The notes under the pieces were generated by a model. The model saw nothing but the letters and a program-made list of their open reading frames with translations. It was not told the DNA's origin and ran no database searches. Below are positions 11,285 through 48,061 of a stretch of DNA of 64,000 nucleotides, one piece after another (the stretch's first letter is position 1; the number at the start of each line of letters is the position of its first letter). Position numbers and translations under genes: made by a program. Source of the DNA: Bacillota bacterium (GTDB taxonomy: Bacteria; Bacillota_I; Bacilli_A; RF39; UBA660). The DNA is taken from assembly GCA_015059425.1 (NCBI GenBank), contig SVAM01000002.1, positions 1 through 64,000 of the forward strand, read 5' to 3'.

Positions 11285-12889
11285 ATGAAGAGAAATGGTA
11301 AATTATTATTAATCATATTATTATTAGTATTAGTAGTTACAATAGGTATATCTTATGCTTATTTTATAATAGGAGTTAATTTTAATGTAGATACTGATGA
11401 AAATTATGGTAAAGCACCTGGACTTTTAAAAGTTGATTATAATGCAGGTACAAGTGCGTTAACTGCAAACGGTATAATGCCTGGAGATAGCATTAGTAAA
11501 GATTTTAGTGTAACAGTAACTCCTACAGATAGAGTAACTGTTACTTATGTCATAAAAATTGATATAGATACTAATACGTTTAAAAAATGTGATGATACTA
11601 CATGGCTAGATTTTGAAAATGAATGTATAAAGAATGCAAATGAATTAGTATATACATTAAAAGATGATAAAGGTATCATTATAGCTAATGGATATTTAGA
11701 AGGTAAAACTGGTGATATAATAATCGAAAAAAAAGAAAAAAAAGTTACTGCAAAAACTACATATAATTATAATCTAACTTTAGAATTTAAAGATACTGAT
11801 GCTGATCAAAATCACAATGTTAATGCAACATTTATCGGAAATTTAATAGTTGAATTTGCAGACAAAAATATAAAATTTGATAATAATTTATATGGTAATA
11901 AATATATATTAGCTAATACTACATTACAAACAGATGATCCGGATTTTTCAAAAACAAGCTGCACAAAAGGAACAAATATTGGTGGAGATTGTGGTGAAGA
12001 AACAGTAGGTTTATATAAATGCATAATTAAAGAAGATGGCAAATGTGCCAAACAAGATGAATTAAGTAGTTTGGATACTACAAGTTTAAATACAACATAT
12101 TATTATCGTGGTGATGTAGATGATAATTACGTAGAATTTGCAGGCTTCTATTGGAGAATAATCAGAATAAATGAAAATGGTTCACTAAGAATGATATATC
12201 AAGGAAGAGCAAAAGATGATGGCAAAAAATTAGAAATACAAAAAACAGGTAGTGAAACTCGACTGGCTGTATCTAGTGCATTTAATACAGATTACAACCG
12301 AGCCGAATATGTAGGATTTAAATATGAATTGGAAAATGCACATGGAACAGATAAGAAATCTACTATATTAAGTGCATTAGAAACATGGTATACAAAAGAA
12401 GATAATGAACTACAAAATTATGAAGAATACTTAGATACAGAATCAGGGTTCTGTGGAGATAGAAGTCTAGCAATTGGTCCAGGTATTGGAACAGCAACAA
12501 CACAATATAGAGCACTACGAAGAATGATGAGCGGTGCACCATCATTTAAGTGTTCAGATAATGAAAGTGATTTATACAAAACAAAGATAGGGTTAATAAC
12601 AGCGGATGAAATTGTATATGCTGGAGGTATATATTGGGGTAGTAATTTAGATGGGGCTAGTAATTTTAGTTATTACTTATATACAGAAGTTTCGTGTTGG
12701 ACGCTTACGCCGAGCCACTTCAATGAGACGAGTGCGCTTGCGCTTGCGTTTGCTATGTTCCCTGAAGGTATTTTGTACTATGATTACATAAATCGCTCGT
12801 ATGGTATCCGTCCAGTTATAAATTTGTCAGCTGAAAATCTGTCAATTTCTGGAAGTGGTACTATAAATAATCCATATGTCATTTCATAA
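11285..12889 (+). CDS. Signal-anchored surface protein with hypervariable C-terminal patch (candidate DGR-type target)
   Basis: N-terminal MKRNGKLLLIILLLVLVVTIGISYAYF. Core FAGFYWRIIRINENGSLRMIYQGRAKDD...NTDYNRAEYVGFKYELENAHGT shared with the 21112 gene. C-term CWTLTPSHFNETSALALAFAMFPEGILYYDYINRSYGIRPVINLSAENL. Confidence 0.85.
   Translation: MKRNGKLLLIILLLVLVVTIGISYAYFIIGVNFNVDTDENYGKAPGLLKVDYNAGTSALTANGIMPGDSISKDFSVTVTPTDRVTVTYVIKIDIDTNTFKKCDDTTWLDFENECIKNANELVYTLKDDKGIIIANGYLEGKTGDIIIEKKEKKVTAKTTYNYNLTLEFKDTDADQNHNVNATFIGNLIVEFADKNIKFDNNLYGNKYILANTTLQTDDPDFSKTSCTKGTNIGGDCGEETVGLYKCIIKEDGKCAKQDELSSLDTTSLNTTYYYRGDVDDNYVEFAGFYWRIIRINENGSLRMIYQGRAKDDGKKLEIQKTGSETRLAVSSAFNTDYNRAEYVGFKYELENAHGTDKKSTILSALETWYTKEDNELQNYEEYLDTESGFCGDRSLAIGPGIGTATTQYRALRRMMSGAPSFKCSDNESDLYKTKIGLITADEIVYAGGIYWGSNLDGASNFSYYLYTEVSCWTLTPSHFNETSALALAFAMFPEGILYYDYINRSYGIRPVINLSAENLSISGSGTINNPYVIS
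12686..12811 (+). other. Candidate hypervariable region (VR-A) in surface-protein gene
   Basis: 42 codons. Aligns with 22267-22386: 28 of 40 aligned codons differ, 26 non-synonymously, between near-identical flanks. Contains a cttgcg tandem duplication relative to VR-B. Confidence 0.55.
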
Positions 12890-13094
12890 ATGACATATGG
12901 AAAGACAATGAATATATGAAAGAAAGTTGTTGCAAAATGACTCCACATTTTGTAACTGCATAGCATATTTTACTCAGAAACATATAAAAAGATGTTTTTT
13001 TTGCCTGCCAAACTTGTTTGTCGGCTAGGGGTAAAAATTTAATGTCTTAGTTATGAGAACAGTATTATCTTAACGAGATTTAAAAATAATATTT
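12872..13094 (+). repeat. Conserved 3' block copy A (hairpins 12872-12900 and 12929-12956; 50-mer 13045-13094)
   Basis: Same order of elements at 22447-22674. CCATATGTCATTT-cat-AAATGACATATGG is a perfect 13-bp stem. The 50-mer TCTTAGTTATGAGA(A/G)CAGTATTATCTTAACGAGATTTAAAAATAATATTT has one mismatch between copies. Confidence 0.8.
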
Positions 13095-13136
13095 GAATAA
13101 AAACTTGTATAAATTCTTGCTTTATGGTATATTATA

Positions 13137-13341
13137 AAAGTAAAGCGAAAAAGAAGCTAAGTAATATATTGTTTTATATAGAGAGTTCATGGTTGGTGGG
13201 AATGAATTAAAAGAATATATGAAATCTACTTCTTTAGTGGAGCTAATACCTCCCGTGTAAGTTGCGTTAAAACTAATAAAGTAATATAAAGGATGGTACC
13301 GCAGAATTTGCTCCTTGCAAAGGCTGTGGTTTTTATTTTTA
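13137..13341 (+). ncRNA. T-box leader upstream of serS
   Basis: AAAGGATGGTACCGCAG T-box/antiterminator sequence. ACCGCAG...CTGTGGT terminator stem followed by TTTTTATTTTT. Immediately upstream of serS. Confidence 0.85.
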
Positions 13342-13357
13342 GAAAGAAGGATTATAA

Positions 13358-14644
13358 ATGATTGACATTAAATTAATAAGAGAAAACAGGGAATTTGTAA
13401 AAGAAAATATTAGAAAGAAATTTCAAGATGAAAAATTACCTATAGTAGACGAAGTATATGAACTTGATATTAAGTTTAGAGAGGCTAAGTCTAAGGCAGA
13501 TACTCTACGTAGCGATAAGAATAAAAAAAGTGGAGAAATAGGTCTTTTAATGCGTGATAAGAAGATTGAGGAAGCGGATGCAATAAAGGCTTTAATAGCC
13601 AAAATGAATGATGAAATCATTGAACTTGAAAAATTAGAAGAAACATTAAGTGAAGATATAAAAAATAAAATGATGGTTATACCTCAAATTATCGATGATA
13701 GTGTTCCGATTGGTAAAGATGACAATGAAAATGTTGAGTTGCAAAAATACGGAGAACCGGTAGTGCCTAACTATAAAATTCCTTATCATGCTGAAATATG
13801 CGATAAATTTAGCGGGTTAGACAAAGAAAGTGCTGGTAGAACTAGTGGTAATGGTTTTTATTATTTAATTGGTGATATAGCAAGACTTCATAGTGCTATG
13901 TTATCATATGCTAGAGATTTTATGATAGATAAAGGGTTTACATATGCAGTACCACCATTTATGATTAGAAGCGATGTGGTTACAGGAGTTATGTCGTTCG
14001 CAGAGATGGATGCAATGATGTATAAAATAGAAGGTGAAGATTTATTCTTGATTGGTACTAGTGAACATTCTATGATTGGTAAATTTAAAGATCAATTAGT
14101 TAAAGAAGAATCACTTCCTATTGCAATGACTTCATATTCACCATGTTTTAGAAAAGAAGTTGGAGCTCATGGTTTAGAGGAGAGAGGAATTTACCGTGTA
14201 CACCAATTTGAGAAACAAGAAATGGTTGTGTTATGTAAGCCTGAAGAAGCAATGAATTGGTATAATAAAATGTGGAGTTACACTGTAGAATTCTTTAGAA
14301 GTTTAGATATTCCTGTAAGAACTTTAGAGTGTTGTAGTGGAGATTTAGCAGATTTAAAAGTTAAGTCATGTGATGTTGAAGCATGGAGCCCTAGACAACA
14401 AAAATATTTTGAGGTTGGTTCATGTTCTACTTTAGGAGAGGCTCAAGCAAGAAGACTTGGAATACGAGCTAAAGGCGAAAAAGGAAATTACTACGTTGCG
14501 ACTTTAAATAATACAGTATTAGCTACTCCTAGAGGGTTAATCGCATTCTTAGAAAATAATTATAACGAAGATGGAAGTGTAAATATTCCCGAAGCATTAA
14601 GACCTTATATGGGTGGTAAAGAAAAGTTAATACCAAAAAATTAA
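13358..14644 (+). CDS. serS: Seryl-tRNA synthetase
   Basis: MIDIKLIRENREFVKENIRKK..., LIGTSEHSMIGKF, REVGAHGLEERGIYRVHQFEKQEMV. Confidence 0.95.
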   Translation: MIDIKLIRENREFVKENIRKKFQDEKLPIVDEVYELDIKFREAKSKADTLRSDKNKKSGEIGLLMRDKKIEEADAIKALIAKMNDEIIELEKLEETLSEDIKNKMMVIPQIIDDSVPIGKDDNENVELQKYGEPVVPNYKIPYHAEICDKFSGLDKESAGRTSGNGFYYLIGDIARLHSAMLSYARDFMIDKGFTYAVPPFMIRSDVVTGVMSFAEMDAMMYKIEGEDLFLIGTSEHSMIGKFKDQLVKEESLPIAMTSYSPCFRKEVGAHGLEERGIYRVHQFEKQEMVVLCKPEEAMNWYNKMWSYTVEFFRSLDIPVRTLECCSGDLADLKVKSCDVEAWSPRQQKYFEVGSCSTLGEAQARRLGIRAKGEKGNYYVATLNNTVLATPRGLIAFLENNYNEDGSVNIPEALRPYMGGKEKLIPKN

Positions 14645-20980: not shown

Positions 20981-21115
20981 ATGAGAAAGATTTTAAGAAC
21001 TTCCCAACAGTTTGCTAAAAATGCATCTGGGGAGGGGCTATTTAAGTTAAACACTCAGATAGTATCTAGGCAAAATAACTTTAAGTTACCTTTAAATATA
21101 GAGGTGACAAAATGA
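20981..21115 (+). CDS. Unannotated 44-aa ORF translationally coupled (ATGA) to the 21112 surface-protein gene
   Basis: AGGAAGG RBS; MRKILRTSQQFAKNASGEGLFKLNTQIVSRQNNFKLPLNIEVTK*; TGA at 21113-21115 overlaps ATG at 21112. Confidence 0.55.
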   Translation: MRKILRTSQQFAKNASGEGLFKLNTQIVSRQNNFKLPLNIEVTK

Positions 21116-22464
21116 AATTTGAAACTATAAGAAGTAAAAAGAAAATATTATTAATTGGAATAATATTATTTTGCGTTAGTGTAACTTTAATATTAGCTAC
21201 AAGTTTAGCAGCTTATAAAAAAACAACAACAATTAAAATAGCAGAAGGTACTGTTAATTATATAATACCGGACTTTAAAATGATAGCGTTAAAACAGTGG
21301 AATGAAGAAATTGGAGAATATGAAGATGTTGGTGTAATGCCAAGTGGCAGTGAATATGTTATTTCTGAAGATAGCTATTGTGAAGTATTAGGAGAAAAGG
21401 ATGAAAATGTAGTACTCTATACTGATTCAAAAGGTCAGCATGTAATATCAAATATTCAAAAAAAATCGAAGTGTTATTTATATTTTGAAAAAAGAAGTAC
21501 TGGAAGTAAATATATTTTAGCAAATAGTAAAATGAGAAGTGGAACACCGAATTTTGCAAATACAAGTTGTACATCAGGGTCAAATAATGGTGGACATTGT
21601 AGAGAAGAAACAGTAGGTTTGTATTGTTGGGATATAGATACTAATGAGTCTTGTACATCTTCAAGCGAAAATAAAACATATTTTTATCGTGGAAATGTAA
21701 AAAATAATTATGTAAAATTTGCAGGGTTCTATTGGAGAATAATAAGAATAAATGAAAATGGCTCAATAAGAATGATATATCAAGGTAGAACAAAAGATGA
21801 CTATGGTAATGAATTAGAAATACAAAATGTTGGAGATGAAACTCAACTGGCTGAAACAAGTTCATTTAATACAGATTACAACCGAGCAGAATATGTAGGA
21901 TTTAAATATGAATTGGAAAATGCACATGGAACAGATGATAAGTCGACTATATTAAGTGCATTAGAAACATGGTATGCAAATGAACTACAAAATTATGAAG
22001 AATACTTAGATACAGAATCGGGATTTTGTGGCGATAGAAGTGCCTATACAGATACAAGTGGAACAACAGCAGGTGGGGGTACAGGATCAACTAGAACCTA
22101 TTATGGAACATATACAAGATTATGTACAAATAAAGCACCATCATTTAAGTGTTCAGATAATGGAAATGATTTATACAAAACTAAGATAGGCTTAATAACA
22201 GCAGATGAAGTGGCATATGCTGGAGGTACAAATACGTGGATTAATTATAGTTATTACTTATATACAGGCAATTTGTATTGGACGCTTTCTCCGGGCATCT
22301 TCGACGGTTCGTATGCGAATGTGTTTCTCATGGGCAATACTGGTGGCTTGGACTTCACCCGCGTGCAACACTCGTATGGCGTCCGCCCAGTTATAAATCT
22401 GTCAGCTGATAACCTGATAATTTTAGGAAGTGGATTAGCAATTGATCCATATGTCATTTCATAA
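21112..22464 (+). CDS. Signal-anchored surface protein with hypervariable C-terminal patch (candidate DGR-type target)
   Basis: Same core as the 11285 gene. C-term YYLYTGNLYWTLSPGIFDGSYANVFLMGNTGGLDFTRVQHSYGVRPVINLSADNLIILGSG. Confidence 0.85.
   Translation: MKFETIRSKKKILLIGIILFCVSVTLILATSLAAYKKTTTIKIAEGTVNYIIPDFKMIALKQWNEEIGEYEDVGVMPSGSEYVISEDSYCEVLGEKDENVVLYTDSKGQHVISNIQKKSKCYLYFEKRSTGSKYILANSKMRSGTPNFANTSCTSGSNNGGHCREETVGLYCWDIDTNESCTSSSENKTYFYRGNVKNNYVKFAGFYWRIIRINENGSIRMIYQGRTKDDYGNELEIQNVGDETQLAETSSFNTDYNRAEYVGFKYELENAHGTDDKSTILSALETWYANELQNYEEYLDTESGFCGDRSAYTDTSGTTAGGGTGSTRTYYGTYTRLCTNKAPSFKCSDNGNDLYKTKIGLITADEVAYAGGTNTWINYSYYLYTGNLYWTLSPGIFDGSYANVFLMGNTGGLDFTRVQHSYGVRPVINLSADNLIILGSGLAIDPYVIS
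22267..22386 (+). other. Candidate hypervariable region (VR-B)
   Basis: 40 codons. Overlapping segment 22273-22392 has 65 G/C of 120 by hand count, in an otherwise very AT-rich window. Non-synonymous-dominated divergence from VR-A. Confidence 0.55.
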
Positions 22465-22674
22465 ATGACGTATGGAAAGACGATGAAGATATGAAAGAAA
22501 GTTGTTGCAAAATGACTCCTCATTTTGCAACCGCTTAGCTTTATATTTTTCATCAACAAATAAAATAAGGAATTAACCCGCTGAACTTTGTTTGTCGGCT
22601 GGGCGATTATATAGAATAAAAATATCTTAGTTATGAGAGCAGTATTATCTTAACGAGATTTAAAAATAATATTT
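22447..22674 (+). repeat. Conserved 3' block copy B (hairpins 22447-22475 and 22504-22531; 50-mer 22625-22674)
   Basis: GTTGCAAAATGA-ctcc-TCATTTTGCAAC is a perfect 12-bp stem with 4-nt loop. Same arrangement as 12872-13094. Confidence 0.8.
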
Positions 22675-22694
22675 TAAAATATTGAGTTTTTGAA

Positions 22695-22991
22695 GTGGAG
22701 TTGGTTAATACGAAGAATATAGATAAGTATTTAATGTTAAAGGATAAATATCAAGATTATGTGATATTAATAAAATCTGGTAATTTCTATTATTCTTATT
22801 TAAAGGACGCTTTTATAATAAGGTATTTTTTTAATTATCAAATGCAGGGCAATAGAATAGGGTTTCCGGTTTCGGTGAAAGATAAAGTAATTAAATTGCT
22901 TAAAAATAATAATATAATGATGATATCAAGGATCAAGATGAATTCACTTTGTTCATCCTTGACATCATTTAAAGACTTAATTCCCAATTGA
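22695..22991 (+). CDS. Small MutS domain-I-like protein (possible DGR accessory); start codon uncertain
   Basis: IDKYLMLKDKYQDYVILIKSGNFYYSYLKDAFIIRYFF...GNRIGFPVSVKDKVIKLLKNNNIMMISRI aligns with the MutS N-terminal domain (YLxLKxxxxDxLLxxxxGDFYExFxxDA...GxPxxxxxxYxxxLxxxG). GTG at 22695 or ATG at 22734. Confidence 0.55.
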   Translation: MELVNTKNIDKYLMLKDKYQDYVILIKSGNFYYSYLKDAFIIRYFFNYQMQGNRIGFPVSVKDKVIKLLKNNNIMMISRIKMNSLCSSLTSFKDLIPN

Positions 22992-23083
22992 GTCTAAACG
23001 GGAACTTACTTTTTTAATCAACAGATTAGAGTTTATACTTTAATCTTTTTTATTTTTAAGTTATAATAATAGTGGTGTTTTTT

Positions 23084-24880
23084 ATGAATGCAAAAAATAT
23101 TAGAAACTTTTCAATTATAGCACATATCGATCATGGTAAAAGTACTTTAGCGGATCGTATTTTAGAGTGCACTAATGCGATAGATAAAAGAGAATTAAAG
23201 GAGCAAATGCTAGATAGTATGGATCTTGAACGTGAAAGAGGAATTACTATTAAGTTAAATGCTGTAGAACTTCATACTAAATATAATGGAGAAGAATATA
23301 AATTAAATTTGATAGATACTCCGGGACATGTAGATTTTTCTTATGAAGTTTCACGAAGCCTTGCAGCATGTGAAGGCGCAATATTAGTAGTTGATGCCGC
23401 GCAAGGGATAGAAGCTCAAACTATTGCAAATTTATATCTTGCCTTAAACAATGATTTAACTATTATACCGGTTATAAATAAAATTGATTTACCTAATGCA
23501 AATGTACCTAAAGTTACTGAAGAACTTAAAAGGGTATTTGGTTTTTCTGAAAAAGAAATAGTTTTATGTAGTGGAAAAACTGGTATTGGAGTTCCTGAAT
23601 TAATAGAAGAAATTATTAAAAGAGTTCCTGCTCCAACAATACCAAAAACAGATAAAACAAGAGCGCTAATATTTGATAGTAGATTTGATGCTTATCGTGG
23701 TGTTATTGCTTTAGTAAAAGTTGAAAGTGGAGAATTAAAAGTAAAAGATAAAATTAAAATGATGGCAACTGATTCGGAGTTTGAAATAGTAGAACTAGGA
23801 GTTAGTTCGCCAAAAGAAATTAAAAAAGATGTAATAAAAGCTGGAGAAGTTGGCTATGTATGTGCAAGTATTAAAGATATTTCTAAAGTTCAAGTGGGAG
23901 ATACTATAACTCTAGTAAATAATCCAGCAGAAGAACCTATAAAAGGATATCAACCTATGAAGCCCATGGTATATTCTGGATTATTTCCTGTAGAACCGAA
24001 TAAATTTGAAGATTTAAAAGAAGCCTTAAATAAATTAAAGTTAAATGATGCTGCCTTATCTTTCGAAGCAGAAACTTCTGATGCTTTAGGCTTTGGCTTT
24101 AGAACAGGTTTTTTAGGGTTACTTCATATGGATGTTATAATGACTCGTATAGAACGTGAATTTGGTATTGATATTATTGCTACAAGTCCAAGTGTTATTT
24201 ATGAAGTTACATTAAATAGTGGAGAAGTATTAAATATAGATTCGCCAAATAAAATGCCTGATAGAACTAATATTTCTTATATAAAAGAACCATTTATTTA
24301 TACAAATATAATAGTTCCGAGCGAATATATAGGTCCAATTATGGAGTTATGCCAAGATAAAAGAGGAATATATAAATCAATGGAATATATTGATGAAACT
24401 AGGGTTAACATTCACTATGAAATACCACTTTCAGAAATTGTATATGACTTCTTTGATAAATTAAAGAGTTATACTAAAGGTTATGCTTCATTTGATTATG
24501 AAATATGTGGATATAAAGAATCTAATTTAGTAAAAATGGATATTTTATTAAACGGAAGTATAGTAGATGCTTTATCAGTAATAGTTCATAAAGATTTTGC
24601 TTACCATAGAGGTCGTGCAATAGTAAAAAAATTAAGAGAATTAATTCCAAGGCAAATGTTTGAATTGCCTGTACAAGCAAGTGTTGGTTCGAAAGTAATT
24701 GCACGAGAAACAATTAGCGCTATGCGAAAAAATGTATTAGCAAAATGTTATGGTGGAGATGTCAGCCGTAAAAGAAAATTGTTAGAAAAACAAAAAGAAG
24801 GTAAAAAAAGAATGAAGATGGTAGGCTCCGTAGAAGTGCCACAAGAAGCATTCTTAGCAGTATTAAGCGGGGAGGAATAA
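23084..24880 (+). CDS. lepA: Elongation factor 4
   Basis: [24 protein letters not shown]...[18 protein letters not shown]. Confidence 0.95.
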
Positions 24881-27737: not shown

Positions 27738-29799
27738 AATATTTATTATTTTAAGTTTATTGTTTATTTTAAGTTATATTATATTATTTACAAAAATTAT
27801 AAAATATAGTTCGATATATGATGACGGTTTTAATGAAATTACTGGCACATTGATAGAATATAAAATAGATGGAGATAAATTGAGTTTTATATTAAAAGCT
27901 AAAGAAAAAATAACTGGAACTTATTATTTTAAAACATTAGAAGAAAAAATTAATGCAAAGGAAATAATTGAATTAGGTATGAAAATCAAAGTAGCTGGTA
28001 CTGTAAGTGTTCCGAAGAATAATAATATACCAAATACTTTTAATTATAAAAAATTTTTATATAATAAGAAAATATATAAAATAATGTCTGTAAATAAAAT
28101 TGAATTTAAAGAAAAAAATAAGAATTTTGTATATAATATAAAAAATATATTTTTAAAAAGAATAGACAGTTTTAAAAATTGTAAAAATTATATTTATGCT
28201 TTTATTATGGGGGAAAGTGGTTATATAGATAATGATGTTTATCAAATTTATCAAAAGAATGGTGTTACACATCTATTTGCTGTTTCAGGTATGCATATTA
28301 GTTTTTTAGTTGTAGCATTGAATAATATATTAAAAAAATTAAAGTTTAAAGAAATATATATTAATATTTTAATTATAATTTTTTTATGCTTTTACATGTT
28401 TTTAATTGGATTTACGGCATCAGTTGTTAGAGCTTGTTTACTATATATTTTGCTTTTATTTAATCAAAAGCTAAATATAAAATTAAATAATATTACAGTT
28501 TTATATTTGATTTTTATATTTTTAGTGTTGATAGATCCTTTTTTTATATACGATATAGGTTTTATTTATTCTTTTTTAACATCCTTTGGTTTAATGTTAT
28601 TTGGTAAGAAAATTACAGGTAACTATATTCTTAAATTATTAAAAACAAGTACTGTTGCTTTCTTATTTAGTTTGCCTTTAACTCTCTATAATTTTTATGA
28701 GGTAAATCTATTAACAATTATTAATAATATAATAGTAGTACCAATTGTAAGCTTAGTATTATTCCCACTCACATTAATTACTTTTATTTTACCTTTTTTA
28801 GAATCCATTTTAAATATTGGCTTCTTAACATTAGAATTTATAAATAGTATATTAAATAATTTAAGAATAAGTTTAGTAGTTCCTAAAATAAATATAATGT
28901 TTGTAGCAGTTTACTATTTCGGTATGTATAATATTTATAAAGGAAAATATAAATATATATTTTTATTTTTAATGTTAATTATAGTATATAAATCGATACC
29001 ATATATAAATAATTCTACATATTTATACTTTTTAGATGTTGGGCAGGGTGACAGTACAATAATTATTACTGAACATACCAAAGATGTCATATTAATTGAT
29101 ACAGGGGGTAAAATAAATTATGATAGTGAAAGTTGGAAATTAAAAAATAAATCTTATAATTTGTCTGATTATATAATAACTTTATTAAAAAGTTTAGGGA
29201 TAGAAAAAATAAGTACAATGTTGATTACTCATGGAGATTACGACCATATGGGAGAAGCAATTAATTTAGTAAATGATTTTAAAGTAGAAAAAGTAATACT
29301 AAATTGTGGAGAATATAATGATTTAGAAAAAGAATTAATTAATGTTTTGAATAAAAAGAAAATTCCATATTATTCTTGTATTAAAGAATTAAAAATAGAT
29401 GACAATAAATTATATTTTTTGAATAATAATGATTACGGGAATGAAAATGATAATTCAAGTGTTGTTTATACTGAACTTAATAATTATAAATTCTTATTTA
29501 TGGGAGATGCAGGAATAGAAGTGGAAGAAGATTTAATAAAAAAATATAATTTGCAAAATATAGATGTTCTAAAAGTGGGTCATCATGGAAGTAAGACAAG
29601 TTCTAGTAAGAATTTTATTGATGAAATTGAACCAAAATATTCAATAATTAGTGTTGGAAAGAATAACAGATATGGCCATCCAAACAAGGATGTGCTAGAA
29701 AATTTAAAAGAATCTAAAATATATAGAACTGATCAAGATGGAAGTATTATGTTTAAAATTAAAAATAATAAATTAAATATTAAAACATGTAGTCCATAG
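27706..29799 (+). CDS. comEC: ComEC/Rec2 DNA-uptake channel
   Basis: MGESGYID..., HLFAVSGMHISFLV, C-terminal metallo-beta-lactamase LDVGQGDSTIIIT, HGDYDHMGEA. Start uncertain, overlaps comEA. Confidence 0.88.
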   Translation: MPRLKIILQSKIFIILSLLFILSYIILFTKIIKYSSIYDDGFNEITGTLIEYKIDGDKLSFILKAKEKITGTYYFKTLEEKINAKEIIELGMKIKVAGTVSVPKNNNIPNTFNYKKFLYNKKIYKIMSVNKIEFKEKNKNFVYNIKNIFLKRIDSFKNCKNYIYAFIMGESGYIDNDVYQIYQKNGVTHLFAVSGMHISFLVVALNNILKKLKFKEIYINILIIIFLCFYMFLIGFTASVVRACLLYILLLFNQKLNIKLNNITVLYLIFIFLVLIDPFFIYDIGFIYSFLTSFGLMLFGKKITGNYILKLLKTSTVAFLFSLPLTLYNFYEVNLLTIINNIIVVPIVSLVLFPLTLITFILPFLESILNIGFLTLEFINSILNNLRISLVVPKINIMFVAVYYFGMYNIYKGKYKYIFLFLMLIIVYKSIPYINNSTYLYFLDVGQGDSTIIITEHTKDVILIDTGGKINYDSESWKLKNKSYNLSDYIITLLKSLGIEKISTMLITHGDYDHMGEAINLVNDFKVEKVILNCGEYNDLEKELINVLNKKKIPYYSCIKELKIDDNKLYFLNNNDYGNENDNSSVVYTELNNYKFLFMGDAGIEVEEDLIKKYNLQNIDVLKVGHHGSKTSSSKNFIDEIEPKYSIISVGKNNRYGHPNKDVLENLKESKIYRTDQDGSIMFKIKNNKLNIKTCSP

Positions 29800-31127: not shown

Positions 31128-31485
31128 ACAATCACCACATGGAGACTACGATCACATGGGAGAAGCAATTAATTTAGTAAATAATTTTAAAGTAGAGAAA
31201 GTTATGTTTAACTGTGGTGTCTTTAATGATTTAGAAAAAGAGTTAATCAAAGTACTAGATAAAAAATATATTAAATATTATTCATGTATTAAAGAATTAA
31301 ATATTGATAATAATAAATTGTATTTTTTGAATAATAGTGATTATGAAAATGAAAATGATAATTCATCAGTTATTTATACTGAACTTAATAATCATAAATT
31401 TCTGTTTATGGGAGATGCAGGAGTGGAAGTGGAAGAAGATTTAATAGAAAAATATAATTTAAACAATGTTAATAATTATAAATAG
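31128..31485 (+). pseudogene. comEC 3' fragment (partial duplication)
   Basis: HGDYDHMGEAINLVNNFKVEKVMFNCGVFNDLEKELIKVLDKK...FLFMGDAGVEVEEDLIEKYNL duplicates comEC 29233-29560. Upstream frame disrupted; no own start or N-terminal domains. Confidence 0.85.
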
Positions 31486-47507: not shown

Positions 47508-48061
47508 AAGTTAAATATATGGTATATTTTAAATAGTATGATTGGAGCATAGACTATGAAATTTGTGCAAATCTAGGACTTGAGATGAAATATTATCATT
47601 ATTATTATAGCGCAAATGCTTTAGCAAATTATAAAGCACCTTCATTTAGTATTTATAAAATTAAATATTTAGATACTGTACAAAATGACTTAAATATCGG
47701 GAATGCTGATTTAATTTATCCTATAGGTTCAATAACAGCAGATGAAGTAATCTTTGCTGGTGCAACAATTAATAAAAATAATTTTTCTTATTATTTGTAT
47801 AATGGATATAATGATAATGCCACATATAGTCTTAATGTTGATTATCAAAATATGAATGATAATGGTCGTTGGAATGTAACATATGGTAGCGAACTTTATG
47901 CTGCTAGTGGTGATTTAACTATTGCCGGATCTTGCAGTCATGATATTCATGTTCGTCCCGTTATAAATCTTAAAGCTAACACTTCTTTAACTGTCAATGA
48001 TACATCATCAAATTATGGAACATGGGACAATCCATATATTGTAGTAGACACAGAAAATTAA
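47508..48061 (+). pseudogene. Decayed C-terminal remnant of the surface-protein family with conserved upstream element
   Basis: 28-nt element identical to 20932-20959, ATGAAATTTG start context, then only the C-terminal part APSF...IGSITADEVIFAGATINKNNFSYYLYNGY...VRPVINLKANTSL...WDNPYIVVD. Confidence 0.6.

Follow-up and report, generated by a model that had tools for sequence, protein, structure and literature searches.

The GC-rich patch near the end of a surface-protein gene in the window (the whole stretch of DNA analysed here, 64 kb, G000:C14:1-64000) is very probably the variable region of a gene targeted by a diversity-generating retroelement (DGR), and we infer that this region, VR-B, was itself written by a DGR. 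The genome, G000, is a draft of 1.15 Mb (95.7% complete, 18 contigs); judging from this assembly the DGR has likely been truly lost from it, and the GC island is most likely a recent fossil that has so far kept its composition instead of drifting to that of the host. A family of dispersed template-RNA genes in the congeners is a more surprising result than the patch itself. We consider it probable that the DGR of this genus of gut Bacilli is a two-part trans system, in which one MSL-Avd-RT operon (RT, reverse transcriptase) serves multicopy autonomous template-RNA genes, often arranged in arrays and each with its own -10 box, template (TR) and conserved scaffold, to rewrite tens of surface-protein paralogs, and that the system was lost in some lineages, including that of the window, with fossil variable regions (VRs) kept.

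Results

A sharp GC island in a surface-protein gene

The first-pass annotation had drawn attention to 65 G/C bases among the 120 nt at 22273-22392, amid sequence of about 30% GC or less. A base count gave exactly this figure, against 29.9% GC for the remainder of the gene (21112-22464, island left out) and a mean of 25.6% across 120-nt windows of the 64 kb. At only four places in the window are at least 56 of 120 bases G or C: the patch at 22273-22392, the tRNA cluster at 37.9-38.1 kb, a stretch at 60.7-60.9 kb, and a second patch, VR-A, at 12684-12819. When the gene's own codons were shuffled, a 40-codon block like the island arose roughly once in 20,000 trials (p ~1e-4). The excess lies mainly in codon position 3, where the island has 67% GC and 5% A while the rest of the gene has 14% and 47%, so amino-acid composition alone does not explain it. 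The edges are sharp and coincide with the variable codons, as had been described, with a 30-nt GC profile of 20% at 22240-22269, 53% at 22285-22314 and 33% at 22390-22419. Also as described, two ORFs overlap the patch, one of 101 aa on the minus strand (22254-22559) and one of 63 aa on the plus strand (22205-22396), and both look like spurious by-products of it.

The gene itself (21112..22464, plus strand) is of DGR-target type and encodes a 450-aa protein with an N-terminal signal/anchor and a putative C-terminal DUF6273/C-type-lectin-like domain. VR-B, which is the GC island, occupies 22285..22395 (plus strand) near the C-terminus, a position at the 3' end of the gene. An AF2 model of residues 130-450 (the C-terminal 321) reached a pLDDT of 95.4; its fold matches were all weak and comprised DUF6273 phage proteins, the Legionella Lcl CTD and C-type lectins (E ~1). 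The predicted domain weakly resembles DUF6273 proteins and, with less certainty, domains of the C-type lectin kind. The nearest named relatives found are gut MAGs, namely uncultured Bacilli bacterium of the 'Lapin' series and one uncultured Mycoplasma sp.

About 20 paralogs of the target gene are present in G000 and about 70 in the congener G003. The expectation that every family member would carry an island did not hold: it was found in only 3 of the ~20 G000 paralogs (C14:21112, C11:2429 and, with VR-A, C14:11870) and, among 27 VRs examined in G003, in few. The members without an island are consistent with lapsed targets whose composition has returned by drift to that of the host. In G003 (L210-L239), the ~70 paralogous target genes occupy a genome of 1.5 Mb, and most of the VRs examined there are AT-rich and apparently lapsed. 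The window also holds a truncated paralog of the family at 47585-48061, of which only the C-terminal part is present.

A truncated DGR operon follows the patch

The 3' flank of VR-B carries several elements on the plus strand that recur elsewhere. Hairpin 1 (22446..22476), a candidate target-recognition hairpin, spans the stop codon with a 14-bp stem (DNA fold z=-6.2), and a counterpart lies behind VR-A at 12871-12901. Hairpin 2 (22504..22531), of the CAAAATGACTCCTCATTTTG type, has a 12-bp stem (z=-7.7) and recurs both behind VR-A and behind a verified templated target in the congener G019 (L128). We rejected the hairpin as a universal target mark, as it showed no clear enrichment (13/33 after GC-rich VRs vs. 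14/44). Further downstream, a remnant of the DGR operon leader (CTTAGTTATGAGAGCAGTATTATCTTAAC) at 22610..22677 has DNA homology to the leader that stands before MSL in congeners; its motif lies at 22621, and a second copy is found behind VR-A at 13041-13097.

Directly downstream of the patch gene lies a truncated MutS-like (MSL) DGR accessory gene (22695..22991, plus strand). By tblastn, its homology at 22713-22934 corresponds to residues 2-75 of the 135-residue congener protein and then ends, with 47-57% identity and E-values down to 2e-25, and the ORF matches Pfam MutS_I (1.8e-6) above the cut-off. Published DGR surveys name an MSL class of accessory proteins, to which a short protein with MutS domain I, encoded next to Avd and RT, would belong; in the window, only residues 2-75 of ~135 are left of it. 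No Avd was found in the window or in the loci examined from its own genome, and RT is likewise absent beside the MSL remnant. The truncated operon ends at the downstream neighbour lepA (23072..24880, plus strand). lepA is present in 36/36 congeners, and the window locus is the only one among the lepA loci examined with an MSL remnant; an apparent remnant at lepA of G022 was rejected as an AT-rich chance match.

The second island-bearing paralog in the window (11285..12889, plus strand) carries VR-A at ~12684-12819 with 58/120 G/C, and the 3' flanks of VR-A and VR-B are ~82% identical over 299 columns. The 3' side of the VR-A gene (island and hairpins within 12684-12957, leader copy at 13041-13097) has both hairpins and the leader copy, yet no MSL before the next gene. 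A T-box-like leader (GGTGGTACCGCAG) at 13130-13320, below the Rfam gathering threshold, precedes the gene at 13358; a search of Rfam over the window returned tRNAs only. Elsewhere in the window, a 300-nt direct repeat (29230-29529 and 31138-31437) is 85% identical over two copies 1.9 kb apart.

DGR machinery is missing from the G000 assembly and kept in most congeners

No DGR RT was found in the G000 assembly. The sole RT detected, at C9 (C9:52770; L001 1348-2298), is of retron type (PADLOC RT_Ec107-like, 3e-127; NCBIfam retron St85 just below the cut-off), and we rejected it as the diversifier, being unrelated. Several congeners have similar short RTs in frames of ~310-330 aa. In most congeners the DGR operon is kept in the order MSL-Avd-RT, with MSL first. 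Their Avd matches Pfam bAvd and PHROGs 'Avd protein of DGR', with NCBIfam below cut-off, and their RT matches RVT_1 and has the motifs LPIGNMTSQ and YMDDF.

The DGR RT is absent from G000, G015 and G023, and TR units, as defined below, are absent from the same three genomes. G015 and G023 are possibly further recent DGR losses. GC-rich VRs are present in both (L258, L264, L253 and L274 in G015; L250 and L260 in G023), without DGR RT or TR units. A fourth genome, G029, has no TR units but carries a DGR of a second type, which has an RT of its own. This second lineage occurs in the genus at L087, L096, L101, L106, L108 and L284, with a different RT and, where a TR was found, with the TR near the target. 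A single loss event was rejected, as a lepA tree leaves the four genomes without TR units ungrouped and G029 has the second DGR type.

Template-RNA genes are dispersed through the congener genomes

A self-scan of 20 congener DGR operon loci for the adenine rule found a TR only in the second DGR type, in G014. When 36 genomes of the genus were searched by pattern, many non-coding, AAC-rich TRs were recovered. With a covariance model of the 3' part, 32/36 genomes had 1-26 TR units each, with none in G000, G015, G023 and G029; in G000 the scaffold had no match at E<=0.1. The units lie apart from the RT operon and frequently form tandem arrays, such as four in ~1.1 kb at G026:C15. In G003, RT is on C50, and the listed TR units are on C7, C9, C3 and other contigs.

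Each unit has the same layout: a TATAAT box, 6-7 nt, GGTTAATCT, a spacer, a TR of ~100 nt and a conserved 3' RNA of ~70 nt whose terminal AGATTAAYC pairs with the 5' start to form a closing stem. Exact TATAAT was present in 45/65 units against 8.6 expected from shuffling, at nearly always equal spacing. The three scaffold helices were 99.1% paired across 21 sequences, with 6 double-changed pairs compared to 1.5 after shuffling and 0-2 for slid controls. In 67 TRs, A made up 0.40, 0.40 and 0.02 of codon positions 1, 2 and 3, respectively, with GC3 of 0.62 and overall GC of 47%. The scaffold had no exact pattern match in IMG/VR viral contigs.

A diverged TR scaffold is also found in other genera of the family, including 10 copies in G137. 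At L296 and L298, both from other genera, the scaffold stands directly behind RT and the gene order is RT-TR-target (preceded by Avd in L296), and the TR/VR pairs differ at 15/36 A against 0/71 other sites and at 20/38 A against 2/69 other sites, respectively. This classic order suggests that the scaffold is part of the DGR template RNA and that the cis layout is probably ancestral, in which case dispersal would be derived.

Templates and variable regions differ at adenines

Three TR/VR pairs, each from a single congener genome, together differed at 38/92 template adenines and at 0/192 other bases. The individual counts were 17/39 A and 0/74 other in G019 (L128), 13/35 A and 0/60 other in G026 (L116), and 8/18 A and 0/58 other in G003 (L211 with L208). 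The G003 pair spans contigs, with the template on C7, the target on C11 and RT on C50, an arrangement that favours action in trans. GC was 47-56% in the VRs for which a TR was matched, compared to a median of 40% for the unmatched VRs collected.

VR-B could be compared to the genus consensus TR, its own template not having been found. The segment 22288-22389 aligned to the consensus without gaps. At codon positions 1-2, 22/33 template-A sites were changed compared to 6/35 non-A sites (p=3.5e-5); 14/15 AAY codons kept C or T in position 3, and 13/15 A-free codons kept their residue. Overall, 21/68 non-A sites differed, and many position-3 sites differed from the consensus. No TR compatible with VR-B at <=3 mismatches was found in G000, and the search for a direct parent at this threshold across G000 and 35 congeners yielded none, the best congener TRs still differing at 17-19 non-A sites. 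Because an exact parent was not found and position-3 differences are many, VR-B probably descends from a diverged TR which has since gone missing. The islands of VR-A and C11 aligned poorly end to end with known TRs.

Discussion

The first-pass annotation had proposed that the patch was copied from a template with its own composition. The core of this idea is well supported by the gap-free alignment of congener non-coding TRs and by active TR/VR pairs that differ only at template adenines; the composition, in turn, is not purely that of the template, because adenine randomisation contributes some GC too. In the ancestor, a DGR RT, with Avd and probably the MutS-like protein, would have copied a non-coding template RNA; misincorporation would have occurred at template adenines, and the cDNA would then have replaced the 3' end of the target gene. 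The template design, with A only in positions 1-2 of AAY codons and none in position 3, would give a high GC3, and A-to-N changes would raise GC further. The TR composition (47% GC, ~2% A in position 3) and the randomisation of adenines together account for the GC island. In congeners, the separate dispersed template-RNA genes would be served in trans by one RT operon. As RT and all templates are absent from the G000 assembly, Avd appears to be so too, and MSL is cut short beside the patch, a recent fossil is the best reading of the island.

We consider it unlikely that a DGR is still active in G000, with its RT operon and templates merely absent from the draft assembly. Some of the 18 contigs carry paralogs at their ends, RT and TRs could sit in the gaps, and the GC of VR-B (0.56) equals that of templated VRs. 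However, RT, Avd and every dispersed TR unit would all have to be missed together, when more fragmented congeners yield up to 26 units; the MSL gene beside the patch is truncated, and G015 and G023 also lack both components. The sharp compositional edges could alternatively reflect DNA brought in from a GC-richer phage or plasmid donor by ordinary recombination, but we think this very improbable: the island is collinear in codon frame with congener templates and shares the codon-position bias of the TRs, and congener islands match TRs of the same genome at every non-A site.

Gene conversion or cassette shuffling among the ~20 paralogs could draw on many copies with shared flanks and near-identical 5' ends, and we give it a similarly slight chance of maintaining the variability of the patch. 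Most paralogs lack the island and none shares its VR, the closest DNA matches that the genome offers to the patch region reach 77% and 73%, and the adenine-centred pattern would be left unexplained. Least probable of all is that codon usage or mRNA structure came under local selection in a gene that evolved with its host, as the island occurs in only 3 of ~20 paralogs, at homologous positions and with different residues, its GC3 stands far above the background of the gene, and the adenine-only differences in congener TR/VR pairs speak strongly against such selection. A DGR-written variable region, now most likely a fossil, is therefore the reading we prefer.

DGRs are usually described as one RT adjoining one TR. 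The DGR of Bordetella phage BPP-1 (mtd-avd-TR-brt) has in common with the genus an error-prone RT with Avd, randomised template adenines and a VR at the 3' end of the target. BPP-1 requires a hairpin downstream of its VR (PMC3240598), and the window has candidate hairpins behind the VR; in BPP-1 TR RNA, a spacer flanks the 3' side (PMC12875486). Whereas BPP-1 has one TR, adjoining RT, the genus has many dispersed TRs, each of them with a separate promoter and a conserved 3' scaffold; in addition, an MSL gene stands ahead of Avd, RT and TR are unlinked, and the genome of the window has neither. Treponema denticola has remote targets, and orphan 'core' targets in strains without RT/TR after DGR loss (PMC4891356) are like those inferred in G000, but multicopy template-RNA genes are not described there. 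In the multi-DGR genome of Thiohalocapsa PB-PSB1, targets are best explained by TR/RT acting in trans (PMC10907252), but the templates belong to DGR loci and a free-standing TR gene family is not described. Survey records with several TRs exist (PMC6642488). We found no open-access description of free-standing multicopy template-RNA genes, which in itself does not prove novelty; the dispersed genes look like a new form of DGR.

If this reading is correct, template RNAs that stand alone, each with a promoter and a conserved scaffold, would reveal how RT locates a template in trans, and would offer a portable means of steering DGR mutagenesis with many templates. The GC island would become a visible mark of recent DGR writing, by which active and lapsed targets could be found and DGR loss dated. 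For the organisms themselves, the system would show how one enzyme can sustain a large and variable surface repertoire in a small gut bacterium.
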